From positions 124,001 to 188,000 of the forward strand of contig NZ_JAVJQO010000002.1 of assembly GCF_040218225.1 (NCBI RefSeq): a stretch of 64,000 nt of DNA, in the 5' to 3' direction. The DNA is from Gracilimonas sp. GTDB lineage: Bacteria; Bacteroidota; Rhodothermia; Balneolales; Balneolaceae. Positions 15,264-47,350 of the stretch are shown one piece after another; position 1 is the stretch's first letter; every line of letters starts with the position of its first letter. Position numbers and translations under genes: made by a program. Below the pieces are notes generated by a model, which did no database searches, was not told the DNA's origin, and saw only the letters and a program-made list of their open reading frames with translations.

Positions 15264-15301
15264 CCTTGCATCGAAATCAAAACCTAATCATTTTTTGTTT
15301 T

Positions 15302-29932: not shown

Positions 29933-32368
29933 TTATTTTATAAGCGTCATTTTTCTGGAAATGGTAGCTTCACCTGTAGTCAGTCTGTATAAATAGATTC
30001 CAGATGATAATCTGCTTGCATCAAAATTAATGGTGTGGCTACCAGCACCCAGCCTCTCATCTACCAGGGAAGCTACTCTTCTGCCCAACACGTCAAAAAC
30101 TTCCAGGTCAACCTGATCTGCACTTGGCAAGGTAAATGAGATTTTCGTAGTTGGGTTGAAAGGGTTTGGATAGTTTTGTTTCAAAGAAACATCTGTTGGA
30201 ATTTCAGTATCTCCGGTTTTTTCATTGGAAACAGCCGTTTGGTTTGGATAAACAACCTCAAGATTATCAATAAAAATAGAACCCGAGTACCTTTCTCCGG
30301 TTTGCTGATCCGATGCCAGCTTAAAGCCTATGCTCTTGATTGTTATGGGATAGTAGAAAGTATTGAAAGGGTCAACAGGGCTAAGGTCACTCATCAGAGA
30401 GGGATAAATATCGAAGTCAGTACTTTCTGCCCATTTTTTTACACGAATCGTGAAAGATTCACCATTATTATCCTCCAGGGCTAAGTCGATCAAATGCTTT
30501 TTACCATCTGTTCTGGCATGGAAGTTAATGGAATCTGGCACCCCAAATACCGGGATATCTGTTTCCAGATAAGCCCATACAGTAGGTGTATTATTATATT
30601 CAAACTCGTAGTCCAATCGCAGGGAGTGTTCACCATCAGTGGCAACACTATCTACCAATACCAGTGCGGAGTTTTCCAGATCTATATTCAGTCCATCCAA
30701 AGACCAGCCATCAAGGCTCTCAAAACTGCTTAGTAATTCCCGTCCAGTGCCAATCTGTACTTCTACTTCAGCTGTATCTGAAACTCCATCGTACGTTCCG
30801 ATTACATTTGTTATTCCTTCACTAATCCCTTTAAAAGTGCCATTTGTGATCATTCCTATGTCCGGGTTTTCAACTTCCCAGCTAATACCGGCATTTCCGA
30901 CTTCCTGTTTCTGCCCGTCAAAATCATATGACTCGTTGAAATAATTAAATGCATAGGAACTATCGGTAACAGCATGCTGCGGGAAGATTGAGAAATCGGT
31001 TATGCCTTTTACAATAACCATCGCGGTATCTTTAAGTCCCTCATATTCCAGATACACATATCCGGTATCCGGAGTGTTGCCGGCAGTAAAATTTCCTTCA
31101 CTGTCTATTGCAGCATCAAAACCTTCACTTAGAGAAAAACTCAGGTTTTGAGAATCAAGCTCGATGGGATAATGATTTACATCACTCCCACTTACTGAAA
31201 AGTTAAATGTATTTCCTCTGTATACTTTCTTAAAAGACGGAGCCAGATTCAGGTTCTCAAGCAAACCGGTTTTCTCTTTTGATGAAACCACCATCAGTGC
31301 ATTAGCAACAGCTCGTTCACCAATTCCATCTGAAGGATCATTAACTACATTGTTGTGAACCACCATGGTCGTAGAACCTCCACCATCAAGATTCAGGGCA
31401 TTCTCAACTCCAAATCTTTTCATGAACTCACCCATTTCTGTCAGAGTCATTCCTGCACTTGAAGCCTGTCTTCCATCAACGGTCATCAGGTAAAGTTTGG
31501 TAGAGTCTGCATTAAAACCCACTGCCGTCCTGGGATGTCTTTCCGGCCAATCACCCTCATTATTCCCATCATTCAGAAACTTACCACGGCCACCTACAAC
31601 CTCTTTTATATTGTCGTAACCGGGTAATAACTGATGTTCTACACGTACAGTATCTCCGGCCTGAAATCCATCCAGATCGTTTGCAGAAGTCCCATGTCCG
31701 GATAGTACAAAAGTAGAATCGGTAAACTCGGCATCACCGGCAGATATTTTCTCGACTACTACTGCTCGTACTTCACCATTTACAACCCATTCATCAATAC
31801 CTTTTAAGATAAGTTCTGTACCAAACTGGTTGGTTCCGGTTGATGATCCGAAATACTGATTGTAATAAACCAACGCATCTGTGGTTCGAGCCTGATTTAT
31901 TCCTGTAATATCAAATTCATCATTCCCCGATCGTAGTTTACCGGTATAAGCAGTAGGGTTGATGAAAACTTTTTTGTCTTTTGTGTATCCAAATACATCC
32001 CTGCTAATCGGCTTTTTTATTATTTCCCCTTTTATAACCTGGGCATTAGTTGGATTTCCCCCTCCATAAAAATCACCGTTAACCGCTGCAACTACCTGAT
32101 GTCCTTCAAACGATTTTCTCTGCGACATGGAACTGGTTTTTTCATAACCGCCAAAAGTATCCTGAGCTTTTACTGTTTCCAGTTTTGTTTCAGATTTAGT
32201 GAGATCTACTTCTACAACATCAAATGTCCAGGGAACGGCAGGAGCTTCGATTGTATAGTGAAATATCCCATCACCAATTTGCTGCACACTCAAAGTATCA
32301 TATTTAATTTGAGCAATGCTCTGGATTGATAGTATGCTTAGTGCAAAAATTAAGATCGACTTCTTCAT
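29933..32368 (-). CDS. Secreted NAGPA-like phosphodiester glycosidase with T9SS sorting domain
   Basis: 811 residues with signal peptide (ending QSIAQ). Residues ~70-395 form the phosphodiester glycosidase (NAGPA/DUF2233) domain: AAVNGDFYGGGNPTNA, RHPRTAVGF, TVDGRQ, LNLDGGGSTTM and ERAVANALMV. The animal enzyme removes GlcNAc from GlcNAc-1-phosphate diesters; bacterial relatives act on similar linkages. Beta-sandwich and Big_2-like segments follow (~400-540), then a jelly-roll-like region (~545-710) and the sorting domain (~730-811, YPNPFNPTT, LSSGIYLYRL, RKMTLIK). Possible substrates are phosphodiester-linked amino sugars of wall polymers. It is last of three minus-strand genes. Confidence 0.87.
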   Translation of the reverse strand: MKKSILIFALSILSIQSIAQIKYDTLSVQQIGDGIFHYTIEAPAVPWTFDVVEVDLTKSETKLETVKAQDTFGGYEKTSSMSQRKSFEGHQVVAAVNGDFYGGGNPTNAQVIKGEIIKKPISRDVFGYTKDKKVFINPTAYTGKLRSGNDEFDITGINQARTTDALVYYNQYFGSSTGTNQFGTELILKGIDEWVVNGEVRAVVVEKISAGDAEFTDSTFVLSGHGTSANDLDGFQAGDTVRVEHQLLPGYDNIKEVVGGRGKFLNDGNNEGDWPERHPRTAVGFNADSTKLYLMTVDGRQASSAGMTLTEMGEFMKRFGVENALNLDGGGSTTMVVHNNVVNDPSDGIGERAVANALMVVSSKEKTGLLENLNLAPSFKKVYRGNTFNFSVSGSDVNHYPIELDSQNLSFSLSEGFDAAIDSEGNFTAGNTPDTGYVYLEYEGLKDTAMVIVKGITDFSIFPQHAVTDSSYAFNYFNESYDFDGQKQEVGNAGISWEVENPDIGMITNGTFKGISEGITNVIGTYDGVSDTAEVEVQIGTGRELLSSFESLDGWSLDGLNIDLENSALVLVDSVATDGEHSLRLDYEFEYNNTPTVWAYLETDIPVFGVPDSINFHARTDGKKHLIDLALEDNNGESFTIRVKKWAESTDFDIYPSLMSDLSPVDPFNTFYYPITIKSIGFKLASDQQTGERYSGSIFIDNLEVVYPNQTAVSNEKTGDTEIPTDVSLKQNYPNPFNPTTKISFTLPSADQVDLEVFDVLGRRVASLVDERLGAGSHTINFDASRLSSGIYLYRLTTGEATISRKMTLIK

Positions 32369-32424: not shown

Positions 32425-33444
32425 CTAATCTTTATCTACTTCCACGTTATAAAGACTATCCTGTCTTTGCTCCAAATGTTGCCTCTCTTCTATTCTCTGT
32501 CTTTCTACGGTATCGTCGGGCTCTAGCTGATGCTCCCATTCATACTCAACCGGATACCACTGTAAAATATCTTTTTTTCCAAGTTCCAGAACTGTATAGC
32601 CGGGTTTAAATCCTAACCAATTACCTCCCCACCAGGCTGCAGAGGCAGCTTGAGAGGTGATATACCATACATCATTAAATCTAAAGTCTTCACTGATATG
32701 GGTATGTCCCTGAAGTAAAGCTTTTACATTATGTCGTTCCAGAACATGCCGAAGCTCTATGTTATCCTGTAGAACGAATGGGCTCATAGCCATCATCTCA
32801 AAATCATTATTAATTTGCCCTTTATGAGAAAAAGCAGCTAAGTGCGAAACCGCAATTGTTGGCATGTCTTTATGATCACCAAGATCGTAACGAAGCCAAT
32901 CCAACTGCTCTTCACCGATCATAGCTTTATAAGCCGGGCCATTTTCGCCTTCAAACTCAAAAATCGAATTCAAAATCACAAAGTGCCACCCGTTGTGATT
33001 AAAACTGTAGTAATCTTTTTCCATCCCCATCTCTTGCATAATCATTTTTTTCCCAATGCCGGGATGGTCGGCAGGAACTTTTCGGCGTGATGATAACCCC
33101 AGTACATCATGGTTTCCAATGCAATTGTAATAAGGCATCCTTAGCTCATCAGTAGCACTTTTATAGAGCCGGATGGATTCTTTATAGGTCTCAAGTTCTG
33201 TGTACAAACCATCAAACACCATATCTCCACCCATCAGTACCAAATCTGGGGAAGGTTCCAATGAGTTTATGGATTCGATACATTTTTTATACCCTAGATG
33301 TCCCTGTCGCCGGGATGTTACATGCTGATCGGTAAGGTGAACAATCCGAAAGCTTTCCTCATTATTCTTGCTAGTATTGAAAAAAGTGCCCATTCCCAGG
33401 GCACTAATTCCAACATTTTTTAAAAACGATCTTCTGGACGACAT
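32425..33444 (-). CDS. Calcineurin-like metallophosphoesterase with Tat-like signal
   Basis: 339 residues. The N-terminus has a twin-arginine pattern (SSRRSFLKNVGISALGMG). The phosphoesterase motifs are complete: HLTDQHV, GGDMVFDG, GNHDV, AVSHL and GHTH. The metal-dependent enzyme is probably exported folded with its metals and could hydrolyse phosphomonoesters or diesters. Its start shares one base with the stop of the upstream GHL10 gene (TAATG), so the two are translationally coupled. It precedes the phosphodiester glycosidase gene by 56 bases, suggesting sequential action on a phosphorylated glycan (inference). Confidence 0.87.
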   Translation of the reverse strand: MSSRRSFLKNVGISALGMGTFFNTSKNNEESFRIVHLTDQHVTSRRQGHLGYKKCIESINSLEPSPDLVLMGGDMVFDGLYTELETYKESIRLYKSATDELRMPYYNCIGNHDVLGLSSRRKVPADHPGIGKKMIMQEMGMEKDYYSFNHNGWHFVILNSIFEFEGENGPAYKAMIGEEQLDWLRYDLGDHKDMPTIAVSHLAAFSHKGQINNDFEMMAMSPFVLQDNIELRHVLERHNVKALLQGHTHISEDFRFNDVWYITSQAASAAWWGGNWLGFKPGYTVLELGKKDILQWYPVEYEWEHQLEPDDTVERQRIEERQHLEQRQDSLYNVEVDKD

Positions 33445-35435
33445 TACTTAATGAGCGTCATTTTTCGGGTCATAGAAACATCTCCCATCTTCAGCTGGTA
33501 AATATAAATACCTGAAGACAATTTGGATGCATCGAAGTTAACCGTATGCTCTCCGGCAACCATAGTTCGCCCTACAAGCTCTGCAACTTGTCTTCCAAGC
33601 ATATCATAAACCTTCAGAGTCGTAAAGCCACTATTAGGCAGATCGAAGGTTATCCTTGTAACCGGGTTAAAAGGGTTAGGATAGTTTTGTGACAATGATA
33701 TCTGCTCCGGAGTTTCCGTTGTTTCCTCATTTGAAACAACAATACCTCCTTCAACTGCAGATGTAGGCTCACTCTCTACATTATTTCTGCTAACAGCTGT
33801 TACAAAATACCAATGACTTTCTTCTGAAGGCGGGGTGACATCCGTATAGCTCGTTTCTCCTGTAACGGCAATCAAGTTGTAAGGGCTCTCCATTTCTTCG
33901 ACTGCATTAGGTGAAGAACCGGCATCGACACGATAAATCGCATATTTAATCAATGTATCGACATGACCGGCAGCGGATGTTTTAGTCTGTACATCGATTT
34001 GAGGTCTATCCCAGCTTAATTCAAATACATACTCTTTCTCCGAATCCCTGTTAACAACAAGGTTTTCAGGTGAATTGGGAATACTTGTATCCTTCCAATC
34101 CATCGTAGGCTGTAAAGCTGCATACTTGTAGTAATTATTCTTTAGTGAATCAGCAAATCCTTTGGACGAATAGGTTGTAATGTTACTTGACCTGAAGAAC
34201 ACACTTCCTGATATATTTTCATTATTTCTATTGTGCCGGATTTGACGAGGTATTTCATCTGCATCAAATAGTGTATTTGAATAGGTACTGCTGCTAGAAC
34301 GGTATAGTCCATGTCCGGGGTATATATGCCGGCCATTAGCTGCAGCTTGTTCAGCCCACCAATCAGCGAGTTTTCCATAATCCTGTCCGGTACCAAATCG
34401 GGAGAAGGCCCAATATAGCTGTGGTGTTATATAATCTATCGTTTGTGCTTCCAGCCAGGCCACTCCATCACCATAGACAACGCTGTAAGCATCCATACCG
34501 CTGATTCCACTTGGCACTCCGCTTTTCCATATTCCAAAAGGACTAATACCAAATTTCACCCATGGTTTCACAACCTGAATACTATCGTGAAGCATTTCTA
34601 CAAACAGATCGATGTTATTTCTTCTCCAATCATCTTTATTATCAAACCCTCTTGGGTATTGAGCGAAGGTATCATCATCAAGGGTATCATTATTGTTGCT
34701 GGCCATATGATTGGGTGGATACGGGTAGAAGTAATCATCAAAATGAATACCATCGACATCGTAACGGTTCACTACATCCATTACAACATCAATATTGTAA
34801 TCAATTACTTCAGGTAAGCCCGGATTCATAATGGCAATTGCATCATTCATTACAAACAACCATTCCGGATGCTTATTAGCTACATGCATAGAATCTCGTG
34901 CGGTAGTACCCGGAAGTTTATTTTTTGATTCTGCATCATAATACCTTCCCAGGAACGGCTTTAAGCTTTCATCTATATTTTCATTATTAAATACTTTTTG
35001 GGTAAAATCGCCCGGGATCATGCGCATAGCCCGATATGGGTTCAACCAGGCATGAAGCTCCATCCCTCTTTTGTGGGCTTCTTCAATTACAAATTCTAAA
35101 GGATCCCAATATGGATCCGGAGCAACACCTTCTTCGCCGGTAAGGTACTTCGACCATGGCTCAATGTCAGAATCATATAGTGCGTCTCCTTCTGTTCTTA
35201 TCTGGAAATACAGTGTATTTATACCAGCAGCTTTCATGTCATCCAATCGGTCTAACAAGCTTTGTTTCTGAAAGCTAACGGGTATGTTGCCGGATGCGGG
35301 CCAGTCTAAATTAATGACCGTAGCCATCCATGTAGCTCTAAATTCTTTTTTTGGTGGCTGATTCTCTTGAGCCTGAACATTTATGTAACAAAACAGGCAT
35401 AGCAAAAGGATTGAAATGGGTTTTCTTAACAACAT
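33444..35435 (-). CDS. Secreted GHL10-type glycosyl hydrolase (DUF187) with FN3 and T9SS sorting domain
   Basis: 663 residues from the ATG at 35435, which opens a good signal peptide (ending INVQAQ); 14 further in-frame residues upstream look untranslated. The GHL10 TIM barrel runs ~25-430 with EFRATWMATVINLDWP, LHAWLNPYRAM, VDGIHFDDYFYPYP, FGISPFGIWKSG and YITPQLYW. An FN3 domain lies at ~470-565 and the sorting domain at ~580-663. Substrates of this family are poorly known; related enzymes act on peptidoglycan-like or exopolysaccharide glycans. It is the first gene of a coupled minus-strand operon, with a strong terminator upstream. Confidence 0.87.
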   Translation of the reverse strand: MLLRKPISILLLCLFCYINVQAQENQPPKKEFRATWMATVINLDWPASGNIPVSFQKQSLLDRLDDMKAAGINTLYFQIRTEGDALYDSDIEPWSKYLTGEEGVAPDPYWDPLEFVIEEAHKRGMELHAWLNPYRAMRMIPGDFTQKVFNNENIDESLKPFLGRYYDAESKNKLPGTTARDSMHVANKHPEWLFVMNDAIAIMNPGLPEVIDYNIDVVMDVVNRYDVDGIHFDDYFYPYPPNHMASNNNDTLDDDTFAQYPRGFDNKDDWRRNNIDLFVEMLHDSIQVVKPWVKFGISPFGIWKSGVPSGISGMDAYSVVYGDGVAWLEAQTIDYITPQLYWAFSRFGTGQDYGKLADWWAEQAAANGRHIYPGHGLYRSSSSTYSNTLFDADEIPRQIRHNRNNENISGSVFFRSSNITTYSSKGFADSLKNNYYKYAALQPTMDWKDTSIPNSPENLVVNRDSEKEYVFELSWDRPQIDVQTKTSAAGHVDTLIKYAIYRVDAGSSPNAVEEMESPYNLIAVTGETSYTDVTPPSEESHWYFVTAVSRNNVESEPTSAVEGGIVVSNEETTETPEQISLSQNYPNPFNPVTRITFDLPNSGFTTLKVYDMLGRQVAELVGRTMVAGEHTVNFDASKLSSGIYIYQLKMGDVSMTRKMTLIK

Positions 35436-35460
35436 GATTTTATAATTTCGATATATAGAA

Positions 35461-35490
35461 AAAAAAAGGCAGCACAAGGCTGCCTTTTTT
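35461..35490 (-). terminator. Rho-independent terminator
   Basis: AAAAAAGGCAG and CTGCCTTTTTT form a perfect stem with a seven-base loop. On the minus strand it ends in a long T run, 16 bases after the stop of the propeller-protein gene at 35506 and before the GHL10 gene start. Confidence 0.9.
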
Positions 35491-35505: not shown

Positions 35506-36870
35506 TTACTTAATAAGAGTCATTTTGTTCGTTAAACGAACTCCGTTTGTTTGCAACATGTAAATATAAACGCCTGAAGACAGGTTAGACGCATCAAAAG
35601 ATACGGTATGATCGCCTGCACTCATGCGAGAGTTTACTAATGTAGCAACTTCACGACCAGTCATGTCATACACTTTAATTGTAACAGGACCAGCTTCGTT
35701 AATCGAATACTCGATATTGGTAGTTGGGTTAAATGGATTCGGATAGTTTTGCTTTAGGGTATATCCTTCTGGAATATCAGATTTTCCATTATTCTCGTTA
35801 GAAGTATAAACCTGCTCGGTTGTAAACTTCTGAACATCAACAGCCGTTTCTGTTGCGCTGAAAGCACCAACATAAGCGATAGTACCATCAGGTGAGAAAT
35901 CTAGACCACGAGGTCTGGCTTGATCATATCCTCCGGAAACATCAGCACCAGCTACCCATTCAATACTATCCAATGCGGTTGGTGTGGTCTCAGGATCAAG
36001 ATCTGCATAATCAAATGCATACCATGTTTGTGGCTGATATGGCTCGCCCGGAACATCATTCAATGAACCTGAACCTACCCATAGGTGGAATGTTTGTGGG
36101 TGAAGGTCGAAGCTTTCAGCTCTGATTCCTCTTAGTACAGTATCTGGTACCGTTGGGAAACTTTCGAATTCACTTGCACGAGCATAACGCAATACTCCAG
36201 GACCAGTATAACCAGCCCACCAGATTGTATTACCATCCGGAGAAACCTGAAGATCACGAGAGAAACCTGAAGTCAGAGTAAGCAGTTCTTCCGGGTTTTC
36301 AAGATTTGAATCATACTTGATAATCGGAGCATCTGTGGCTACTACAGCAGATACATAAATGTTTCCATTTTTATCAGCAGAAGCTTCACCAAGAGAACCA
36401 ATACCTGGATCAACTTTGGCGATACCCATACCTGTTGTATGATCTACCTTGTAAACACGGTTAAACTGAGAGATAATAATGTCTCCATTATAATCTGCTT
36501 CAATACCACGTCCTGAATAACCTTCGTAAGCTTCACCTTGCCACACCTGACCTAAAGTATCAGCTGGGGTGTCATCTTCATACTCAATAACTTTGAGTGG
36601 TGAAAACGAAGCTGGTGTACCATCAGGATTATAGATGTAGATTACGCGTGTCGCTACTTTTACCCCGGTTCTGTTTAGTGTAACACTATCGGTTGCACCA
36701 AAAGGTTGTATCCAGATTTTACCTTCGCCGTCAACGGCAACACCATGAACTTCTACCCATGTATCACCTTCTTCCGGTACGAAAGTATCGTCCTGAGTCC
36801 AATTTTGTGCAAAAGCCAATGCTGGTATAAGCATGAAGCTAAGCACGGTTAGTATTTTATTCATTTTCAT
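35506..36870 (-). CDS. Secreted beta-propeller-like protein with T9SS sorting domain
   Basis: 454 residues with a signal peptide (ending ALAFAQ) and a good ribosome binding site (AAAGGAG, 7 bases from the ATG). Residues ~25-360 contain repeating blades (VEVHGVAVDGEGKIWIQ, DLQVSPDGNTIWW, PRGLDFSPDGTIAYVG) typical of NHL/SGL-like propellers. The sorting domain covers ~372-454 (YPNPFNPTT, LSSGVYIYML, NKMTLIK). No catalytic motif is recognised. It ends the minus-strand cluster that starts with the TonB receptor and resembles the propeller of the preceding lipoprotein, so both may bind the same ligand. Confidence 0.75.
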   Translation of the reverse strand: MKMNKILTVLSFMLIPALAFAQNWTQDDTFVPEEGDTWVEVHGVAVDGEGKIWIQPFGATDSVTLNRTGVKVATRVIYIYNPDGTPASFSPLKVIEYEDDTPADTLGQVWQGEAYEGYSGRGIEADYNGDIIISQFNRVYKVDHTTGMGIAKVDPGIGSLGEASADKNGNIYVSAVVATDAPIIKYDSNLENPEELLTLTSGFSRDLQVSPDGNTIWWAGYTGPGVLRYARASEFESFPTVPDTVLRGIRAESFDLHPQTFHLWVGSGSLNDVPGEPYQPQTWYAFDYADLDPETTPTALDSIEWVAGADVSGGYDQARPRGLDFSPDGTIAYVGAFSATETAVDVQKFTTEQVYTSNENNGKSDIPEGYTLKQNYPNPFNPTTNIEYSINEAGPVTIKVYDMTGREVATLVNSRMSAGDHTVSFDASNLSSGVYIYMLQTNGVRLTNKMTLIK

Positions 36871-36941
36871 AATTATCTCCTTTGTATCTGTTTATCTATG
36901 CGTTTGATTATTTAGATTAAGTATTTGTGTTATCGTTTCAG

Positions 36942-38219
36942 TTAAAAACCGAAAATTCCTGCTCTTGTGCGGTCATACATATTCAAAAAATTGATACTGT
37001 TCTCATCATCTCCTCTTACAGTAACCACAGCAAACTCATCATCACGCCAGGTTATACTCGTAATTCCGGGCTTCAGCATGCCTTCATAAAATGCTTCATG
37101 TCTTCCATCCGGGTATACCCGTACCATGCTTGGTTTCGATACATCATCTATTTCTCTACCCGTTGTTATAATCAATTCACCGTTTGAGGCCAAAATCATA
37201 TCCGAAATGCTACCGCCGTAATGTTGGGAATAATCAAAATATAGTCCACCCTGAGTCAAATTACCTCCACCATCAATGGTGAATTTCCATACTTTTTGGC
37301 CTCCCTGAATTTCACCTCCAACATACAGCTCATTATTGGCAGCATAAAAAGCCACTGATGAAAATGCACCAGCGAAATTCGTTTTAGACTCGGCTCTGTT
37401 AGTTACATTAAACCGGTGAATTTGGTCACTATCTACACCTACAACCCATAAGAATCCGTTATTATCAAAAACCATGTCACGGATCTTGAGAGCATTTGTA
37501 GTTGAAGCAGCCCAAACGTCTTCCTGCAAATCGTTGCCAAAAGTTTTCACGAAAACTGCCCGCAAACTCTGTTGTGCCAGAAAAAGATCCCCATTTGGGC
37601 CTACTGCCAGTGCAGAATAGCTGTTAAACCTCATAGTACTGTCGGATGGATAAGGGTTATCATCATCGTCAAGCTCACCCTGATATCGGGTGTTATCGGT
37701 GGTAACGGTCCCATCCGGAGAAATTCGGGTATAACGAATAATTCCGTTCGTATTTATTATAGCGTAAACATTGTTTTGTGCATCTACAGCAACAGGGGTG
37801 TTTGGATTGTTTGAGGAAGCGACTCCGGGATAAAGCCCAAAAGGCTGAATCAGATCATAGAGGTATGAGTCACTAAAAAACTCAGCTCCTCGTACAGATA
37901 CCCTAACATTTAAATCGTCTCCCCAAATAGTTCCAGGCCGTACTACAAGTTGTGTTTTAGTTGCACTTTTGACGACACCCGCAGATCCACCAAAATTAAT
38001 GGTGACACTATCAGGATCTGTTGCAAAGTTCTCTCCGGTTACGATAACGGAATCAACCCCAGCCAGATATCCATCTACCGGTGTTATATTTGTAACAACA
38101 GGGTTTGGCCTTGAAGGCTCATAATCAGGATCATATACACTGTTACCTTCTTTACAAGATATTAGCCCTGTAGTTAAAACTACCAATAATACGATGTGAT
38201 TTATTTTTCTAAACTTCAT
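36942..38219 (-). CDS. Lipoprotein with IPT/TIG domain and beta-propeller
   Basis: About 425 residues from the ATG at 38219; an ATG directly after the upstream stop (38234) would add five residues. Lipobox GLISC puts it on a membrane. An IPT/TIG Ig-like domain follows (~43-120: VVTNITPVDGYLAG, SVIVTGENF, VTINFGG). The rest is propeller-like (ALAVGPNGDLFLAQ, MVFDNNGFLWVVG, SDMILASNGELIIT). IPT plus NHL lipoproteins often serve as surface glycan-binding proteins next to TonB-dependent receptors in Bacteroidota. The position after the PorV-like gene supports a receptor complex role; the ligand is unknown. Confidence 0.75.
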   Translation of the reverse strand: MKFRKINHIVLLVVLTTGLISCKEGNSVYDPDYEPSRPNPVVTNITPVDGYLAGVDSVIVTGENFATDPDSVTINFGGSAGVVKSATKTQLVVRPGTIWGDDLNVRVSVRGAEFFSDSYLYDLIQPFGLYPGVASSNNPNTPVAVDAQNNVYAIINTNGIIRYTRISPDGTVTTDNTRYQGELDDDDNPYPSDSTMRFNSYSALAVGPNGDLFLAQQSLRAVFVKTFGNDLQEDVWAASTTNALKIRDMVFDNNGFLWVVGVDSDQIHRFNVTNRAESKTNFAGAFSSVAFYAANNELYVGGEIQGGQKVWKFTIDGGGNLTQGGLYFDYSQHYGGSISDMILASNGELIITTGREIDDVSKPSMVRVYPDGRHEAFYEGMLKPGITSITWRDDEFAVVTVRGDDENSINFLNMYDRTRAGIFGF

Positions 38220-38234
38220 ACTTACTAATGTCAT

Positions 38235-39239
38235 TTAAAATCCTATTTGAGCACTAAATCTGTTTACTTCACCAAATACACCAAACTGAGTGTACGAGTA
38301 GTCAACACTTAAGACCATGGGGCCAATAGGTTGCTTTATACCGGCACCAAAAGTTAGCTGCTCTTCATCTTTTGGAAAACCATATCCTCCCCTTATTACA
38401 AATCGATCTATGAACGTGTACTCCAGACCAAAAAGCAGTTGCTCATCGTAATCACGAGGCCTGTTTGCATCAATGCTGACAAGAAGAGAGTGAACATCCG
38501 GGTCAAGGTTACTTAGATCTAACACATCCATCGAAATTCCAATTTTGAAAGTAAGAGGGAGTTCAGCCCCTTCATCGTCGTAACTTACTTCAGGAGAAAA
38601 GTTTCTGAGCGCCATACCAAAGTTCAAACTCTCAAAACCTGTTTTATAAAGTACACCAAAATCGAGTACTCCTGTACCCGCAGAAAACGACTGTAATTCA
38701 TAACCTCCGGAACCATCCATGGTTACAGCTGCTTTTCCTAAATTCTGATTACTGTACCTGAAGTTAGCACCTACCGAAAACTGATCTGTAATCGCATTTG
38801 CATACGACAGACCTACAGCAAAAGCCGTTGGATTTATAGTTCCTAAATCAACATACCCTTGTTCATTGTCTGCCCGGGCAGTGGAAAGGATTTCTCCATA
38901 ATCAACAGAAATAGCGTTTACTCCAATAACACCATATTTCCCATCAGCAGGCTGATAAACCAGCGAAGCTGAATTGTGATTGATATCAGCAATCCATTGA
39001 ACCGCACCTACACTAGCCGTATACGTACCATTTATATAAGCCATAGTAGCTGGATTGTATAAGGCTGAATAAGCGCCCATCTCTACAGATGTAACCGCTT
39101 CAGACATCGCCGAAGCTCGCGGAGATGGCGATACACTTAAAAATTTCATACTTGTTTGCGCCCTCTTCTTTTGTCCATATATATCTGTGGTACAAAGAAG
39201 CGCTAAAATACAGAGGAATAATGCTTTACTTAATCTCAC
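38235..39239 (-). CDS. PorV/PorQ-family outer membrane beta-barrel protein
   Basis: 334 residues with signal peptide (ending TDIYGQ). The N-terminal TSMKFLSVSPSPRASAMSEA split around MGAYSALYNPA is the UPF0164/PorV signature, followed by alternating strands and a terminal aromatic strand (FSAQIGF). PorV is the outer-membrane shuttle that carries cargo to the type IX attachment complex. In Balneolota several PorV paralogues exist; this one is embedded with a receptor and a sorting-domain protein, which suggests a dedicated export partner (inference). It lies 8 bases after the FN3-protein gene and its stop touches the next start, so it is tightly coupled. Confidence 0.85.
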   Translation of the reverse strand: MRLSKALFLCILALLCTTDIYGQKKRAQTSMKFLSVSPSPRASAMSEAVTSVEMGAYSALYNPATMAYINGTYTASVGAVQWIADINHNSASLVYQPADGKYGVIGVNAISVDYGEILSTARADNEQGYVDLGTINPTAFAVGLSYANAITDQFSVGANFRYSNQNLGKAAVTMDGSGGYELQSFSAGTGVLDFGVLYKTGFESLNFGMALRNFSPEVSYDDEGAELPLTFKIGISMDVLDLSNLDPDVHSLLVSIDANRPRDYDEQLLFGLEYTFIDRFVIRGGYGFPKDEEQLTFGAGIKQPIGPMVLSVDYSYTQFGVFGEVNRFSAQIGF

Positions 39240-39247
39240 TTTTACAC

Positions 39248-41368
39248 CTATAGTATGATTACAATTTTTCTTGTAGCTACTTTACCAAACTCATCATCGT
39301 TTGGATCTTCGTTGATAATTCGGGCAATATAAATGCCACTAGCTACTCGTTGACGGTAGTCTGTTTTGACATCCCAGTAGATATCTCCACTTCCATTTGT
39401 ATTGGTCAAAGTCTTTATTTTTTCACCTAACTCAGTATAGATGTTTATTGTACATCTGCTGGGCACTTCAAAGAATGCTACCCGGTCTTCACTGGCTACA
39501 CTTCCAAATTTCAATTCAACAGGTGAGTTTGCCCTGTATGGATTCGGCACCACACGAATATCTTCCATGGCTTCACCCGCAGGTCTGAGCAGTCGGGCCG
39601 GATCATAACTTTGCATATAATAGCGGTTGCTTATCAACTCAGTATTTGTCGGTGTTTGTCCGGTCGGGTCGTTATTCAAAGATCCTACACTAACTATATA
39701 ATAATAGTAGTCAAGTCCGCGGATGGGCGGATCAAGCAAATATTCAGGGCCACGATCTACGTCACCATCTTTGATAAAGGTTTCACTGGCGTCAGCCTCA
39801 TAGAGAAGCCGGTAAGTACTGTCCAGTCTTCCCGATGCACGATAAATTCTAAAGCCATTAAGATTTGATGTGTCACCGGTATATTCCCATTCAAGGTCAA
39901 TTCCATTACCTGCAGAAGTTACTGTAAAAAGACTGGGAGGTTCCGGAGCCTCTGGGATTGCATAACCCGACTCATAGTTTGCAATAGCTCTTTCAAACGT
40001 TTGAAATAAAGAATCTCTACCCTGGAATACTACCCTGTTCTTTTGTTCGGCATCAATCTCACCTCTCTTGAATGCAGCACCCGTTTCATTTGCCAATTCC
40101 CTTGATATACCTGATGAAGCCTCAGCAATAACTATAGTCACACTGTCTCCGAAGGCAATATCGTATGGACCGTAACCATAGGTATATGCTTGCCCGCCCT
40201 GTTCATCCGGTGGAGTAGGTGCATTTGTTGGGTTTACAAAACCATCGAATCCACTTGGCTCTACAACATAGGCATGTCGTGGGGTCACCCTTCCGCGGCT
40301 CATCATTTCATATTCTTCCTCCATTTTCGTGACATTAAAGGCGTCGTTGTTACTATACAATTTATCATCATTGTGCTCATAAGACATGGTAAATGGCTGT
40401 CCGGGGTCATCCGTTGGGTCTGTAGATGAAGCATCAGCATGCAAGGTTACGGTTCCAACAAAGTGATAGGCTGCAAGCCGGCCTGTGGTGTCATCAGCAG
40501 ATAAATAACCACCTGTAGTATTCGGGACAAATATCGGAGCCCCAATATTGTCATAGTTTGGAGTTGCAAAGCTTGGGAAATACCCATGCCAGGCAAAAGA
40601 AGCTCTGAAATCTTCGGGTTCACCGGGTCGTGCACCATCACCCCGCTGATCATTCATTGTATTAACACCCCAGCCTGTCGCATTACCGATGGTATACCGG
40701 GAAGCTTTAACGGGAGCCATACGATTCAGAAAATAAGGAATAAATCCTGTGATGTCCTGACCAGGCATTTCAATTTCCGGATCACCATCCGTATTACCCG
40801 TATTTATAAATGTATACTCAATTACGTGGTAATTGTCATGAAACTCTTGGCCAAACTGTTTTATCGTACGTTTTACCGTAACTCCAATAAGTGTGTTCAT
40901 TTCGGTACGAATCACACGATCGGCATCGAGATTTGGATCAACCCGGTCGTTCTGTACACTCTTGGAAAAAGAATCTAATCCATCAACATTTACTGAAGGC
41001 GGCTCAAACTTACTCACCGTTTCCATACTTACCGGATAAAATTCTCCCAAACCAGTTACCCGGGGGCCAACATGAACAACCCGTCGATTAAAAGTGGTTC
41101 CGTTTTCATCGGTATAATTGGTAACACCTAACCAGAGAGCCTTCATAGCCTGAGCATCCTGCCCTCTATAAATAGCAGGCCATTGCCAGCCACCCTGTTG
41201 TTCATTGATAAAGCCTTCTTCAATTTCTGAGCCAATACTGGAATAAAAATTGTGAAAAGAGCCAACTGATAACCACCTGTTTTCTACTTGCGAATAGGCA
41301 TTAACAGATAATCCTATTGCTATTAGAAGCGAAGCACAGATATACTTATACAAATTCTTTCTACTCAT
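39248..41368 (-). CDS. Large secreted FN3 protein, unknown function (paralogue of 49282-51393)
   Basis: 706 residues with a signal peptide (ending VNAYSQ). The N-terminal ~470 residues are an unassigned conserved region (VGSFHNFYS, GWQWPAIY, VVHVGPRV, FAWHGYFPSF, YHFVGTVTLHAD). An FN3 domain follows (~490-580: IDLEWEY, FRIYRAS). The C-terminus has a divergent FlgD/sorting-like domain (VVPNPYRAN, VASGIYIARI) ending RKIVIIL, not the usual basic KMxLIK end. The paralogue at 49282 shares the whole N-terminal part but has a typical sorting domain. It lies 31 bases downstream of the TonB receptor gene and is probably its surface partner. Confidence 0.75.
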   Translation of the reverse strand: MSRKNLYKYICASLLIAIGLSVNAYSQVENRWLSVGSFHNFYSSIGSEIEEGFINEQQGGWQWPAIYRGQDAQAMKALWLGVTNYTDENGTTFNRRVVHVGPRVTGLGEFYPVSMETVSKFEPPSVNVDGLDSFSKSVQNDRVDPNLDADRVIRTEMNTLIGVTVKRTIKQFGQEFHDNYHVIEYTFINTGNTDGDPEIEMPGQDITGFIPYFLNRMAPVKASRYTIGNATGWGVNTMNDQRGDGARPGEPEDFRASFAWHGYFPSFATPNYDNIGAPIFVPNTTGGYLSADDTTGRLAAYHFVGTVTLHADASSTDPTDDPGQPFTMSYEHNDDKLYSNNDAFNVTKMEEEYEMMSRGRVTPRHAYVVEPSGFDGFVNPTNAPTPPDEQGGQAYTYGYGPYDIAFGDSVTIVIAEASSGISRELANETGAAFKRGEIDAEQKNRVVFQGRDSLFQTFERAIANYESGYAIPEAPEPPSLFTVTSAGNGIDLEWEYTGDTSNLNGFRIYRASGRLDSTYRLLYEADASETFIKDGDVDRGPEYLLDPPIRGLDYYYYIVSVGSLNNDPTGQTPTNTELISNRYYMQSYDPARLLRPAGEAMEDIRVVPNPYRANSPVELKFGSVASEDRVAFFEVPSRCTINIYTELGEKIKTLTNTNGSGDIYWDVKTDYRQRVASGIYIARIINEDPNDDEFGKVATRKIVIIL

Positions 41369-41399
41369 TACGCCTTTTTTATTTTTACAACTCTGTTAT

Positions 41400-44300
41400 T
41401 TAAAAAGAAAATCTTACACCGAAGCGGATCGTTCTGGGATCAAGAAAATTAAAGAACTGCTGATTGGGCATATTAATGTATGCCTTATCATCCAGCACTT
41501 TGTTTACATACCCCTTGTCAGCTTCCACAAAAGCTCCATCTTCATACTGATAGTACGCTCCTTCCTGTGTATTGTAGTATAATGCCCTGCCATTAGGATT
41601 ACTGACAGTATTCAAATCAGTAGTTGTTTCGATAGGCACATATTGTACATCGGCAGGGCGGTAATCACCTGGCTTATCACTTCCGGGCACCCTGGAGCTT
41701 AGTAAATTAATTTCCTCAAGCTTTCCTTTTGGAAGGTGGAGTGATGCCATATAATCTAAATAGTCATTACCGTCAATGAGTCCCGAATTAAAGATATTAA
41801 AGTTTCTTCGGTTGATAACATTACTTACATCTGCAAAGAATCTCACATTCGAACCATCACCCAGATCAACACGTTTTGTTATTCGAAGGCTCGTACTCCA
41901 ACTGTCTCTGTACTGTAAATTGTCTACAACTCCTGGGATTGAGCCACCACCGGTATAAGTGAATTTATCTCCAGCTCTCCAGCTAACCAAAGGAACAATT
42001 TGCCATCTTCCTAACGGGTAGCCACCAAGAAATTGTGGTCCTAATTCGGGTGGTGTCTGGAAATACAATTGCAGACGTGCGAAAGGACGAGGAGTTGATC
42101 TTGTTATATCGTTATCTGCTGTCAGGCGTTCATACTGTCGTTGCTCAAATGGGTTTTCGTAATTCTCAAGCGTTCCAAAGAAACCTGTCGTTTGAACATC
42201 ATAGGTGTAATTAATCTCTCCCCAGAAAAATCTACCTCTTTGTTTTCTAAGTGTAAGTTCCACACCACGAATATCTTCATATGAAAACGGACGACTTACC
42301 GTATAGCTGCTATTATCTCGCCCGGTAAATGAAACCTGAATAGGCTGATTACTTAGATCTTTGTAATAGCCACTTATTCTCACCAGGTAATTGTCAAAAA
42401 GGTTTTGCTCATAGCCAAGCTCGTATGCAACGGTTTTTGGCAGAGGATTATTAGGCGAAGCTAACCTTGTTACTGTATTGGTAAATGGCTCAATACGGAC
42501 TAAATAAAGGTTTTCTGGTTGTGGAAGCTGAACGAAATGACCATAGTTGAAAAACAACTTACTGTCATCCGTAATTGGGAATGAAACACCTAATCTTGGC
42601 TGTAATACAAGTTGTGGATCTACATCAGAAGTAGCAGCGGTGTCCAGCGCCGAGGCATTTCCTGTAGAGAATAAATCGGTAAAGGGCTCATAGTCATACC
42701 AGTCAACATTCGGGTCGTTGTAAGTTAAACGAAGTCCAAGATTGGCAATCATTCCTTCGAACTCAATTTTATCCTGCACATATGCTGCAATACGATATGG
42801 AGTTGTGTTCCAAACCGAGCGTGTTCGACCGGAAGGAAGTACCTTATCAAATGATCCATAATTGATTCGGCTATCCGTTCTTGTAAAATCAACTCCTGCT
42901 TTTACCAAATTATACCGATCCAGCTGACTGGTTATAGCAAAATTCACATTCAGATCTGAAACTTCACTGCTATCCCGGGCAGTACTCATACCCACTCCCA
43001 TCCTCATACCTGAAGCCAGGCCGAAAGAAGTTTCATCAAAAAAGCCAAAAGGAGCTTCGCTAAAACCAACACCACCTATTGTATATACATCGGAAGTATC
43101 TCTGAATCCCCCGGGGTTGGTGCTTGTTTTATTGAAAAAGTTATTAATCTTAATTTCGTAAAAGGTATTATTATTTATGGAATGCGTGAACTGAGCACCG
43201 ATGTTCCTGCTTATTTTTTCAGATGGTGCCCAGTAATCCGTAGCGAACAATCTGGATTCAATAAAACTAACCTGATCCATATCAGCTGAAATATCCGTAC
43301 TGCTTGTGAAGAAATGAGAATCTCCAACAAAGTCACCAGAAGAACTACCTGTTTGACTTTCAGAAGTTCCTGTTTCCCGACTATACATACCATCAATTGA
43401 AAGCTTCATTCCGGGACCAACATTACTTGTCAGCTTGGTTTGCCAGGTTGTTTGATCATACCTGTCTCTGGAAAGAGGCACCATATACATTTCCTGTGTC
43501 TGTCTTAGAGAAACAGAAAAGCGAAGATCACCTAATTTATCACTAATTACAGGAAACGGACCACCTACCGTTAAATCAATCTCATAATCCGGCTCCGTAA
43601 TCGCAAAATCTTTTCGGTGCTGATATAAAAATGCCTGCTGAGCAGCTTCAGGTGTTAAATCATTGGTTGGGTCCTCATCAGCAAGTAAACTTTGTGAGAA
43701 AGCATTCCAGCCCTGGAATGATGGGTAATTTCGCTGTGTGTAAGTATCCCAGGCGCCATTATTCGTTCCTGTCCAGGCTACTTCATCATCTAAATAGGGT
43801 CTAAGCCAATATGAATTCGGACTGTTTATATCCTGCCCGACATTTTTTTGCTGGGGCGGTGTAATTCGAAACAAGCCATCCACAGTATAGCGATCAGGAC
43901 TACCTTCCTTACTTGTCACATTAATAAGACCCGACCGAACATTTCCATATTCAGCATTAAAACCACCGGTTTGTAACTGTACATTTTCTACTGAAGTCAC
44001 ACTGATACCAGTAAAAGGGGTATTATCACGACCTGATCGAAGGGCAAAACCATTTAAGTTAAACGTTACCTCATCTGAACCACTACCGCGAATGCTCAAA
44101 CCTTCAACACCAGCCTGCAACCCAACCACATCAGTGACACTGGCAACAGGTAGTGCATCAATATTTTCTTTACTAATGTTAGCCTGACTTGAAGAAACAT
44201 CTCTTTTAACCACAGGTTTTTCGGCTACAACTACTACTTCCTCTCCCTCAAAGGTTTCTTCGGACATTTCAATATTAACCTCAGTCGTCAGGTTAATATT

Positions 44301-44567
44301 TACCTCTACCTCTTCCACAACAACGGGTGTAAAACCTATAAAAGAAGCTTTTATAGAATACGTACCAGGTTTCACGTTCAGAATTTGATAGTATCCATCT
44401 GGCTGGGTAGCTGTACCCTGAGTAGTTCCTTCGATAATAACATTCACCCCTGGAAGCGGTTCCCCATTCGTATCAGTAACAAAGCCGGTTATCTTACCAG
44501 TTTGTGCGAGAAGGGATTGTGAAATGAGTAAAAAGAAGAAGAATGATAGTAGCTTTTTAACATCCAT
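41400..44567 (-). CDS. TonB-dependent receptor with carboxypeptidase-regulatory-like domain
   Basis: 1055 residues. A signal peptide (ending QSLLAQ) precedes a CarboxypepD_reg-like beta domain (~24-105: GFVTDTNGEPLPGVNV, GYYQILNVKPGTYSI), a TonB-box-like stretch (EEVVVVAE), a plug domain (~118-230, DVVGLQAGVEGLSIRG, GGFNAEYGNVRSGLIN) and a 22-strand barrel ending IRFGVRFSF. It imports a large or rare ligand across the outer membrane. There is no SusD homologue; its partners are the FN3 protein, PorV-like barrel and IPT lipoprotein. It heads a minus-strand gene run to 35506. Confidence 0.92.
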   Translation of the reverse strand: MDVKKLLSFFFFLLISQSLLAQTGKITGFVTDTNGEPLPGVNVIIEGTTQGTATQPDGYYQILNVKPGTYSIKASFIGFTPVVVEEVEVNINLTTEVNIEMSEETFEGEEVVVVAEKPVVKRDVSSSQANISKENIDALPVASVTDVVGLQAGVEGLSIRGSGSDEVTFNLNGFALRSGRDNTPFTGISVTSVENVQLQTGGFNAEYGNVRSGLINVTSKEGSPDRYTVDGLFRITPPQQKNVGQDINSPNSYWLRPYLDDEVAWTGTNNGAWDTYTQRNYPSFQGWNAFSQSLLADEDPTNDLTPEAAQQAFLYQHRKDFAITEPDYEIDLTVGGPFPVISDKLGDLRFSVSLRQTQEMYMVPLSRDRYDQTTWQTKLTSNVGPGMKLSIDGMYSRETGTSESQTGSSSGDFVGDSHFFTSSTDISADMDQVSFIESRLFATDYWAPSEKISRNIGAQFTHSINNNTFYEIKINNFFNKTSTNPGGFRDTSDVYTIGGVGFSEAPFGFFDETSFGLASGMRMGVGMSTARDSSEVSDLNVNFAITSQLDRYNLVKAGVDFTRTDSRINYGSFDKVLPSGRTRSVWNTTPYRIAAYVQDKIEFEGMIANLGLRLTYNDPNVDWYDYEPFTDLFSTGNASALDTAATSDVDPQLVLQPRLGVSFPITDDSKLFFNYGHFVQLPQPENLYLVRIEPFTNTVTRLASPNNPLPKTVAYELGYEQNLFDNYLVRISGYYKDLSNQPIQVSFTGRDNSSYTVSRPFSYEDIRGVELTLRKQRGRFFWGEINYTYDVQTTGFFGTLENYENPFEQRQYERLTADNDITRSTPRPFARLQLYFQTPPELGPQFLGGYPLGRWQIVPLVSWRAGDKFTYTGGGSIPGVVDNLQYRDSWSTSLRITKRVDLGDGSNVRFFADVSNVINRRNFNIFNSGLIDGNDYLDYMASLHLPKGKLEEINLLSSRVPGSDKPGDYRPADVQYVPIETTTDLNTVSNPNGRALYYNTQEGAYYQYEDGAFVEADKGYVNKVLDDKAYINMPNQQFFNFLDPRTIRFGVRFSF

Positions 44568-45293: not shown

Positions 45294-46091
45294 ATGAATC
45301 AAATTTTACCTATGAGCCTTACGTATACCAACTACCTTAAAATCGACGAACTGCTTGAACTTCAGCAGCTTAAATCTGACCCACCTGAACATGATGAAAC
45401 CTTGTTTATCATTATTCATCAAACCTATGAATTGTGGTTCAAACAAATTTTACACGAGTTCGGTAAGCTTCGAAAAAACCTGGAAGCCGGTAATACCTGG
45501 GGATCGCTTAAAACCATGCGGCGGATTTTGACCATTCTTAAAACTATGGTCTCACAAATTGATATTCTTGAAACCATGACCCCCCTTGAGTTCAACAGCT
45601 TTCGGAAATTTCTGGGGCAGTCCAGCGGATTTCAATCCCTTCAGTTCCGGGAGATGGAAATTATATGCGGCCTTCGCTTTCCTTTAATGAAAGAAGCCCA
45701 TAAAGATCAGCCCAAACATATAAGGATATTGAAGAAGCGAATGGAAGAATCCACCCTGTGGGAAAGTTTCTGTGCTTACCTAAGAACCAGGGGTTATAAT
45801 ATTGAACCCAAACGCGTAAACGAAAAAGGACTGATTCATGAACCTTCGGATGAAATTCAGGAAGTATTGGTAGAAGCTATGCAGAATGATCCGGAGGCAG
45901 CTCTTATTGCCGAGCTGTTTGTAGATTATGATGAAGGACTTCAGGAATGGCGGTACCGGCATGTCAAAATGGTGGAGCGAACCATTGGCACCAAGAAAGG
46001 CACTGGTGGTTCTGATGGAGCGAAGTATCTTCATAAAACCCTAAACCATGCTATTTTTCCAGACCTGTGGGAAATTCGATCTAAATTTTGA
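45294..46091 (+). CDS. kynA: Tryptophan 2,3-dioxygenase
   Basis: 265 residues (259 from the second ATG at 45312). The haem enzyme opens the indole ring of tryptophan to N-formylkynurenine. Both family histidines are visible: distal His in FIIIHQTYELWFKQ (~44) and the haem-ligand His in EWRYRHVKMVERTIG (~222). Other signatures are FRKFLGQSSGFQS and GTKKGTGGSDG. All-alpha, cytoplasmic, expected tetramer. A kynureninase-type gene follows after 71 bases with its own -7-like element; a formamidase and kynurenine monooxygenase are not in the window. Confidence 0.95.
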   Translation: MNQILPMSLTYTNYLKIDELLELQQLKSDPPEHDETLFIIIHQTYELWFKQILHEFGKLRKNLEAGNTWGSLKTMRRILTILKTMVSQIDILETMTPLEFNSFRKFLGQSSGFQSLQFREMEIICGLRFPLMKEAHKDQPKHIRILKKRMEESTLWESFCAYLRTRGYNIEPKRVNEKGLIHEPSDEIQEVLVEAMQNDPEAALIAELFVDYDEGLQEWRYRHVKMVERTIGTKKGTGGSDGAKYLHKTLNHAIFPDLWEIRSKF

Positions 46092-46122
46092 CTTATCCGA
46101 ACATTTGATACCCAAAATCAGT

Positions 46123-46130
46123 TACCTTTG
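46123..46130 (+). promoter_or_regulatory. Candidate -7 element before kynU
   Basis: TACCTTTG fits TAnnTTTG and lies 33 bases before the start at 46163. A TTTG stands 15 bases upstream, shorter than the usual spacer, so the promoter is tentative. Confidence 0.4.
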
Positions 46131-46162
46131 CACCCTTAATCTTAGGTTTATCCTCATTTTAT

Positions 46163-47350
46163 ATGTCTGATATTGATTTCTTAGCCAATAAGCTCTCTCC
46201 TCATTATTCTCATTTTGATGTTGCCAATCGACTGCTCTTTACCGGGCATTCTCACCAGGCCTGGCCCGATGTAGCCCGTGAAGGACAAACCGAATATTTT
46301 GATGTGTGCGCAAAGCATGTGGATAACAAATGGGACATCGCTTTTGAAAAGACCGAAATACTGAGAAATTACCTTCGTGATTTTTATGATGACCCAAACG
46401 GATTCTACTGCCGGGAAGAAAGTACCCATGTATTGTTTGTTAGCTGGATGAGCAGTTTAGATCTGAAAAATAAACCAAAAATCATCTCCACAGATGGAGA
46501 GTTTCATTCTTTGTTTCGTCAGCTGCACCGGCTGGAAGAAGAAGGCTTGGAGTTTGTTCGTGTAGCAACCGAACCCGATGAAAGTTTTGCTGAACGCATC
46601 ATAGAAGAGATGGATGACCGAACGTCTGCCATCATGCTTTCCCGTGTATATTTTGAAACCTGCCTTATCAATACACATTTAACTGAAATTGCTGCAGCTG
46701 CCAGAGAAAAAGGAATCCCAGTTTTAATTGATGACTATCACGGAACCAATGTTGTTCCCCTTTCTATTCGTGAAGCCGGACTTGAAGACTGCTTTATTCT
46801 GATAGGAGGATATAAATACCTGCAATGGGGAGAATCAAATTGCTTTCTGCGCTTTCCTAAAGATTGTAATTACCGTCCAGCTATCACCGGATGGTTTGCT
46901 GCCTTCAGTTCACTCGATAAACCCAGAACGGACGCTCCAGTAGAATACGATAACGGCAACCAGCGCTTTGCGAGTGGTACTTATGACCCCTCTTCTCAGT
47001 TTCGGGCTGCAAAGGTAGTTGAGTTTTTTCAGGAACACGGGCTATCCCCAAATGTACTGCGGGAACAATATTTGGCTCAGGTTAAAATGCTAAGAGAACG
47101 GTTTCTGGCTAACCAATTTGACAAATCTGTGATACGCCTCACACACGAAGAACCGCTGGAACGAAACGGAGGATTCTTGTCTTTAACCTCCCCGCATGCA
47201 AGGCAAATTCGAGCTTCGCTAATGGACAATGGAGTCTTTACGGATGCCCGTGGTGAAATTCTGAGATTTGGACCTGCTCCATACATCACTTCCTCTCAGA
47301 TAGATCAGGCTATGATTGAGCTAAAAAATGTTGTGAAAAATCTCTCTTAA
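46163..47350 (+). CDS. kynU: Kynureninase-like PLP enzyme (aminotransferase class V fold)
   Basis: 395 residues. It has the class V fold with ISTDGEFHS, LIDDYHGTN (Asp that holds the PLP ring nitrogen) and the PLP lysine in IGGYKYLQWGE, whose form fits kynureninases (YKYL). The end FGPAPYITSSQID also agrees with the family. The enzyme would cleave kynurenine to anthranilate and alanine or 3-hydroxykynurenine to 3-hydroxyanthranilate. The neighbouring tryptophan dioxygenase gene supports this. Sequence alone does not exclude another class V lyase. Confidence 0.82.
   Translation: MSDIDFLANKLSPHYSHFDVANRLLFTGHSHQAWPDVAREGQTEYFDVCAKHVDNKWDIAFEKTEILRNYLRDFYDDPNGFYCREESTHVLFVSWMSSLDLKNKPKIISTDGEFHSLFRQLHRLEEEGLEFVRVATEPDESFAERIIEEMDDRTSAIMLSRVYFETCLINTHLTEIAAAAREKGIPVLIDDYHGTNVVPLSIREAGLEDCFILIGGYKYLQWGESNCFLRFPKDCNYRPAITGWFAAFSSLDKPRTDAPVEYDNGNQRFASGTYDPSSQFRAAKVVEFFQEHGLSPNVLREQYLAQVKMLRERFLANQFDKSVIRLTHEEPLERNGGFLSLTSPHARQIRASLMDNGVFTDARGEILRFGPAPYITSSQIDQAMIELKNVVKNLS

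Follow-up and report, generated by a model that had tools for sequence, protein, structure and literature searches.

The window analysed here, a stretch of 64,000 nucleotides from a Gracilimonas sp. genome of 3.54 Mb (G000:C2:124001-188000), carries on its minus strand a block of five genes encoding a TonB-dependent receptor, a long-tailed surface protein with an FN3 domain (the FN3 protein), an outer-membrane barrel of the PorV family, a lipoprotein, and a secreted protein with a type IX sorting tail. The first three constitute a conserved gene triad that is repeated within and among genomes. The best explanation, to which a probability of about 0.5 is given, is a SusD-free uptake complex whose type IX-exported subunit would be docked by a retained tail on its own PorV-like barrel, with peptidoglycan fragments as the probable substrate in this case; the uptake machine taken apart from its substrate is somewhat more probable than the whole. 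A preliminary description of this DNA had proposed an outer-membrane complex including a PorV paralogue, which the gene-order counts given below make the best reading, but the coupling of import with type IX export that it attached to this complex found no support. The peptidoglycan setting and the general, multi-copy nature of the triad go beyond that description.

The five-gene block

The five open reading frames (Table 1) are separated by gaps of 31, 8, 0 and 71 bases, from the receptor to the sorting-tail gene, and are followed by a terminator-like hairpin that folds better than shuffled sequences (z -3.59; equally good folding in 2 of 200 shuffles). The single minus-strand run with gaps of 0-71 bases and a strong terminator at its end, as first described, was thus recovered, and Pfam and NCBIfam searches agree with the families given then for the receptor, the PorV barrel, the TIG lipoprotein and the sorting tail. 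The run is not a product of chance, since its order recurs in relatives.

The receptor is SusC-like but stays under the cut-off of the SusC/RagA model TIGR04056 (82.5 of 368.25 bits); its N-terminal part is a CarboxypepD_reg domain, and no signalling domain was detected in it at E 0.1. Cys27 of the lipoprotein is invariant among 49 aligned sequences, and the model of this protein (mean predicted local distance difference test score, pLDDT, 91.5) matches SMP30/DFPase-like propellers at Z about 25-26. The propeller mentioned in the preliminary description is therefore supported, by model, for the lipoprotein, whereas the product of the fifth gene has a family match for its tail only. No SusD family was found among the five proteins at E 0.1, and the two PF07980 SusD matches of the genome are on contigs C6 and C7 and not on the window contig, in agreement with the absence of SusD noted before.

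The long-tailed protein and its tail

The FN3 protein, formerly left without a family, indeed reaches no Pfam or NCBIfam cut-off, but can now be read structurally as a supersandwich, an FN3 domain and a PorZ-type tail, the three parts of its AlphaFold2 model (mean pLDDT 90.4). The beta-supersandwich was aligned by VIA-align with GH94 and GH116 enzymes (Z about 18, root-mean-square deviation (r.m.s.d.) 3.1-4.2, about 250-280 residues aligned). This region also holds helices at residues 423-466, and the GH94/GH116 catalytic barrel is absent in the model; since no catalytic barrel follows, a binding role is suggested for the supersandwich.

The long tail, of about 106 residues, folds in the model like the C-terminal domain of PorZ (5m11; Z 10.8, r.m.s.d. 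2.5, 90 residues, 20% identity), and a profile made from 16 tails detects PorZ 5m11 by sequence with an E value of 0.0016. The uncut tails of PorZ and PorU measure 96 and 108 residues, and cut tails 67-88 (PMC11285876). Neither a type A tail (PF18962/TIGR04183; E 0.1 / 0.01) nor a type B tail (PF13585; E 0.1) was found on the protein; weak type B matches under cut-off (PF13585) occur in other subfamilies (L162, L198). Against the NCBIfam PorZ and PorU models the tail scores 20.9 of 260 and 15.4 of 420, far under cut-off, and the PorU of this genome did not match the FN3 tail profile at E 10; because the profile misses PorU, it is through PorZ that the tail is linked to uncut ones. The window also holds a paralogue of the FN3 protein with a type A tail (Table 1), lying between recX- and permease-like genes, a natural tail swap.

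The barrel could also be an independent FadL-type channel, with the long-tailed protein an ordinary cargo whose tail is cut and with genes that are merely co-regulated. PorV proteins do belong to the FadL family (PMC9143113), yet the tail fits neither the type A nor the type B models and folds like an uncut one, and the two type A-tailed paralogues have no barrel, so that this explanation appears unlikely.

The PorV-family barrel

The barrel scores well above the cut-off of the PorV/PorQ family (NF033709, 189.4 of 90) and fails the equivalog models of both PorV (NF033710, 87.0 of 250) and PorQ (NF033711, 84.9 of 220), while a true PorV (290.7), beside PorU, and a true PorQ (294.7) are encoded elsewhere in the same genome. 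This bears on the coupling originally proposed, by which a PorV paralogue would shuttle the secreted enzymes of the operon to the sortase while the receptor imports. Proteins with type A sorting tails do occur in or beside many triads; however, coupling is not needed, because a PorV and a PorQ are encoded in the genome besides this barrel, nothing ties the receptor to export, and PorV-family genes follow the strong long tails (50/53) far more often than the weaker ones (2/15 and 7/49). Such coupling is therefore highly improbable. As barrels of this sort go with one kind of cargo, the adjoining long-tailed protein, a dedicated dock is suggested instead.

In a tree of 32 barrels, those of the block studied here (8 rows) formed one supported group (96/100), the sampled groups t3 and t4 each also held together, and the true PorV separated with two other paralogues (100/99). 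The tree gives weak backing to a pairing by descent.

Conservation of the block

In a phylum sample, 75 of 148 genomes matched the long-tailed protein, many of them via the tail only. The loci compared here are the best 80 of 400 confirmed stretches from a scan of named genomes, and come from Balneolaceae, Rhodothermales, Ignavibacteria, Caldithrix, KSB1 and other records. All five genes were in order at 55 of the 65 loci with room to test; a comparison of gene order had been suggested in the preliminary description, with lack of co-occurrence as the outcome to count against it, and it turned out in its favour. Considered singly at testable loci, the neighbours next in place were the receptor (66/71), the PorV gene (78/80), the lipoprotein (70/74) and the sorting-tail protein (61/69). 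For one locus subset 64 loci were tried and 60 of the 80 used, L113, L123 and L151 having been dropped for in-frame stops and L106 left out.

Among distinct tails of the FN3 family, a PorV gene adjoins 94 of 97 long tails versus 0 of 2 type A tails; counted by frames, copies included, the values are 108 of 111 long-tailed versus 0 of 3 type A-tailed. The long tails of L095 and L101 that have no adjoining PorV are second tandem units, where the PorV gene precedes the receptor. The presence of PorV genes beside long tails, and of none by the type A-tailed paralogues, is as expected of a cognate pair. Two triads in tandem were observed at L095, L101 and L139.

The triad in twelve genomes

The tail profile was run on 12 chosen genomes and gave 53 strong matches, of at least 65 bits. 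The pairing count covered 117 listed tail rows, among them all 53 strong matches, after removal of rows scoring less than 25 bits and of the second fragments of split frames, together with 129 rows from a second list. A PorV-family gene was present within 1 kb downstream on the same strand for 50 of the 53 strong tails, against 0.09 expected, and for 2 of 15 and 7 of 49 weaker, type A-like tails among the matches listed. Of the three strong tails without PorV, one has a gene inserted before PorV (L062 in G132), one lies on a contig of 4 kb (L205), and the third (L204) is real. A TonB receptor stands directly upstream of 47 of the 53; the six misses comprise two contig ends (L202, L205), a second tandem unit (L179), two receptors located further off (L170, L173) and one true absence (L204). 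The two tallies differ at a few places: PorV was missed in the receptor-layout tally at L186, L191 and L197, owing to overlapping open frames, yet is present in the 1-kb count, and the reverse holds for G132:C1:3139920.

At least four subfamilies (31, 10, 5 and 4 members, plus three singletons) sharing one design can be told apart among the 53 proteins, and 11 of the 12 genomes carry 2 to 9 tail-barrel pairs each. PF07980, the only SusD family searched across genomes, had 35 matches in 9 of the 12 and none in G132, G135 and G005; G132 and G135 possess 7 and 5 pairs, respectively, and G005 none. Ten chosen neighbours of other triads were a chondroitinase B, an alpha-amylase with CBM48, a CBM20/CBM48 protein, two CBM9 proteins, an amidase, a peptidase S51, a DUF5689 protein, an FG-GAP protein and a GHL10 protein. 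Because these neighbours vary and no PF07980 SusD lies near, the triad appears to be a general module for uptake whose accompanying enzymes change.

It is barely conceivable that these are ordinary SusCD-type loci with a diverged SusD that was missed. The layout of receptor, surface protein and lipoprotein resembles that of SusCD loci, and the search across genomes was limited to PF07980; against this, the second gene product models as supersandwich, FN3 and tail, the lipoprotein as IPT domain and propeller, and the nearest of the 35 PF07980 matches is 12.7 kb from any of the 53 tails.

With slightly less assurance than the complex itself, the triad may be taken as a widespread, multi-copy and SusD-independent TonB design and as a further class of type IX cargo and barrel, of which the subfamily in the window would be an outer-membrane gate for peptidoglycan fragments; with the same reserve, such triads would occur in Balneolaceae and in further families of the same class and phylum. 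In the open-licence PubMed Central literature, searches on muropeptide receptors, peptidoglycan loci, PorV paralogues or complexes of PorV with a receptor brought up no account of such a triad.

The published xylan locus of Rhodothermus marinus (PMC6987092) was considered as a triad and rejected: the locus in G008 that is likely its copy shows a receptor beside type A proteins, with neither long tail nor barrel, so not every receptor belongs to a triad. G008 carries a triad elsewhere (L071). A cassette of receptor, PorV-family and NHL-repeat proteins was observed at L075 (G000:C7:123000-139000), where no long-tailed protein was found.

The substrate

Downstream of the block, after a GHL10 glycosidase, a metallophosphoesterase and an NAGPA phosphodiester glycosidase, the window holds between 15266 and 29927 a dense set of peptidoglycan and amino-sugar genes, including a NagB-like and PIG-L fusion (Table 1); MurQ is present in the genome outside this set. 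Muropeptide enzymes and a transporter thus occur together, with NamZ, two amidases and GHL10 over Pfam cut-offs and the AmpG- and NagZ-like proteins below NCBIfam cut-offs. We read the set as a putative kit for dismantling peptidoglycan. One GHL10 protein, Cwp19, acts as a lytic transglycosylase (PMC6016235).

Equal flanks of 8.3 kb on each side were compared for 40 loci of the window kind and 40 other-subfamily triads in 20 kb stretches, the type A-tailed paralogue L090 not being among the former. GHL10 was nearby in 29 of 40 loci versus 2 of 40 control triads, a comparison that may favour window-type loci, as the GHL10 profile and single queries were drawn from window-like blocks. Other peptidoglycan or amino-sugar genes occurred in 19 of 40 versus 3 of 40, the control matches being NagZ-like only. 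When the near relatives L080-L092 were removed, GHL10 remained in 21 of 32 and the other genes in 11 of 32 loci; with 9 kb flanks and L090 included, GHL10 was found in 27 of 38. A first control had given GHL10 in 2 of 42 other-subfamily stretches, but these were only 4 to 19 kb long. By density, the 88 GHL10 genes of 27 block genomes lead to an expectation of about 0.02 per 20 kb. GHL10 is present in 98 of the 148 phylum-sample genomes and in 26 of the 27 block genomes, which were chosen from 31 with a good FN3-protein match by leaving out G003, G008, G050 and G058, where GHL10 is weak.

At L064 the genes after the block are GHL10, a relative of dipeptidyl-peptidase VI (3npf, 2.8e-73) and a relative of 3iji/3ijl (1.3e-146), listed as muconate cycloisomerase, which we take to be a dipeptide epimerase, the name of the next match. 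Relatives of both dipeptide enzymes likewise come after the block in L142 and L156, and a NagB-like gene precedes the receptor in L052, L054 and L055, all of one genus. These neighbours make peptidoglycan a fairly probable substrate for the window member. At L174 (G030:C1:344500-357500) a triad is followed by a secreted Amidase_2 protein, and at L182 (G127:C7) and L193 (G065:C1) a pair of adjacent GHL10 genes borders an other-subfamily triad, in what may be a second system for the cell wall.

Points against the reading

Several observations weigh against the reading of a tail-docked uptake complex for peptidoglycan fragments. The tail profile was made from tails lying beside PorV where checked, and the 65-bit line was placed at a gap after the list had been seen. 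L106 has a long-tailed FN3-family gene without a barrel and is a real exception; L204 (G005:C1:2046000-2060000) holds a 1502-residue frame with a long tail and neither receptor nor barrel. In the barrel tree the largest subfamily is not one group, with 2 of its 8 rows placed elsewhere, and many branchings stay open; retention of the uncut tail on the surface protein is inferred from fold and partnership only. As to the substrate, the terminator stands between the five genes and GHL10; GHL10 was not found in the L169, L170 and L173 stretches of the window subfamily; GHL10 matches are only weak in the family carriers G003, G008, G050, G058 and G078 and absent from G039; and in 8 of the 40 loci no peptidoglycan or amino-sugar gene of those sought was present. 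The presence of NamZ had to be discarded as evidence, as 146 of the 148 phylum-sample genomes have it, and only its nearness counts.

The same machine might serve another amino-sugar polymer or an alpha-glucan instead of peptidoglycan. Peptidoglycan specificity is not known for NAGPA and NagX, other triads adjoin chondroitinase B and alpha-amylase, and DogH, a GHL10 protein, was reported to be active on starch (PMC9967864). Amidases, NamZ, dipeptidyl-peptidase VI, dipeptide epimerase and AmpG-like genes nevertheless recur near the block, each in a minority of loci, and such another substrate is considered rather improbable, if less so than the rival explanations of the barrel.

Proposed mechanism and comparison with known systems

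In the favoured reading of a docked uptake complex, type IX secretion would export the long-tailed protein, whose tail would stay uncut and attach to the PorV-like barrel of the neighbouring gene, in the way that PorZ docks on PorQ and PorP-like barrels receive type B cargo. Docking would hold the supersandwich above the receptor as a glycan-binding subunit, with accessory surface roles for the lipoprotein and for the secreted type A protein, and TonB would power import. In the window, the surface GHL10 enzyme may cut glycan strands and the receptor import the pieces, which would be trimmed by amidase, NamZ and NagZ-like enzymes, and an AmpG-like carrier would bring the products inward for kinase, MurQ and NagB-type catabolism.

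Triads share with SusCD loci a TonB receptor with a surface partner, a lipoprotein, secreted enzymes and, beside other triads, glycan enzymes; they differ in lacking SusD and in having as partner a protein with a type IX tail and a PorV-like barrel of its own. Among type B cargo, PG1035 is bound by PorP and SprB by SprF (PMC9143113). The PG1035-PorP and SprB-SprF systems likewise combine a tailed surface protein with a cognate FadL-family barrel, usually co-encoded (PMC10202324), whereas the triad has another tail family, another barrel family and a TonB receptor. PorZ keeps its tail, by which it binds PorQ; a review speculates that cognate PorV-like barrels may shield tails from cutting (PMC10202324). 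With the PorZ-PorQ attachment complex the triad has in common a PorZ-like tail of the uncut type, by model, and a partner of the PorV/PorQ family, but the window barrel is under the PorQ cut-off and part of an uptake operon. Muropeptide scavenging by Tannerella forsythia via AmpG (PMC5388701, PMC7670621) resembles the window in its AmpG-like transporter, amidases and MurNAc catabolism; in these two texts, searched for TonB and SusC, no outer-membrane receptor is named, the single SusC match being the beginning of a different word among the references, whereas the window locus offers a candidate one for muropeptides.

The triad would join TonB import and type IX export, which were found treated apart, in that an exported lid brings its own barrel. 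The 50 pairs, along with two paralogues without a pair, provide a natural test set for the idea that the barrel protects the tail, and a feeding route on glycans is suggested for genomes with triads and without PF07980 SusD.

Other features of the window

Table 1. Features of the block and its surroundings, with positions in the window
Feature	Positions	Strand	Evidence
TonB-dependent receptor	41400-44567	-	CarboxypepD_reg PF13715 2.4e-21; Plug PF07715 2e-6
Long-tailed surface protein (FN3 protein), 706 aa	39248-41368	-	signal-peptide-like start by eye
Beta-supersandwich, residues 28-471	39956-41287	-	VIA-align vs GH94/GH116 N-terminal part
FN3 domain, residues 472-594	39587-39955	-	2w1n, Z 10.7, r.m.s.d. 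1.9, 89 residues
PorZ-like long type IX C-terminal domain, residues about 596-706	39251-39583	-	fold and profile
PorV-family barrel	38235-39239	-	NF033709 189.4 of 90
Lipoprotein, IPT/TIG domain and beta-propeller	36942-38234	-	TIG PF01833 4.6e-11
Secreted protein with ordinary type A sorting tail	35506-36870	-	PF18962 6.2e-12
Terminator-like hairpin 3' of fifth gene	35462-35490	-	12 pairs, T run
GHL10 glycosidase with type A tail	33444-35477	-	PF02638 3.5e-65
Metallophosphoesterase	32425-33444	-	PF00149 4e-11
NAGPA phosphodiester glycosidase with type A tail	29933-32368	-	PF09992 1e-35
NagX-like membrane protein	28767-29927		below NCBIfam cut-off
BadF kinase	27821-28666		NagK-like match below NCBIfam cut-off
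NagZ-like GH3	26754-27815		NagZ match below NCBIfam cut-off
NamZ	25395-26639		over cut-offs
Amidases, two	19788-22289 and 23543-25387		over cut-offs
AmpG-like major facilitator superfamily transporter	17335-18627		below NCBIfam cut-off
NagB-like and PIG-L fusion	15266-17230		over cut-offs
FN3-protein paralogue	49282-51393	-	58% identity; ordinary type A tail; no PorV neighbour

The TTG start of the GHL10 gene falls within the terminator hairpin, and the ATG at 35435 is the likelier start. As a speculation, NAGPA might cleave the sugar-phosphate bond that joins teichoic acid to the wall. Genes resembling those for tryptophan 2,3-dioxygenase and kynureninase, named by reading, lie divergently beside the block in the window (45294-47350) and at L080-L082 and L086, in several Balneolaceae.

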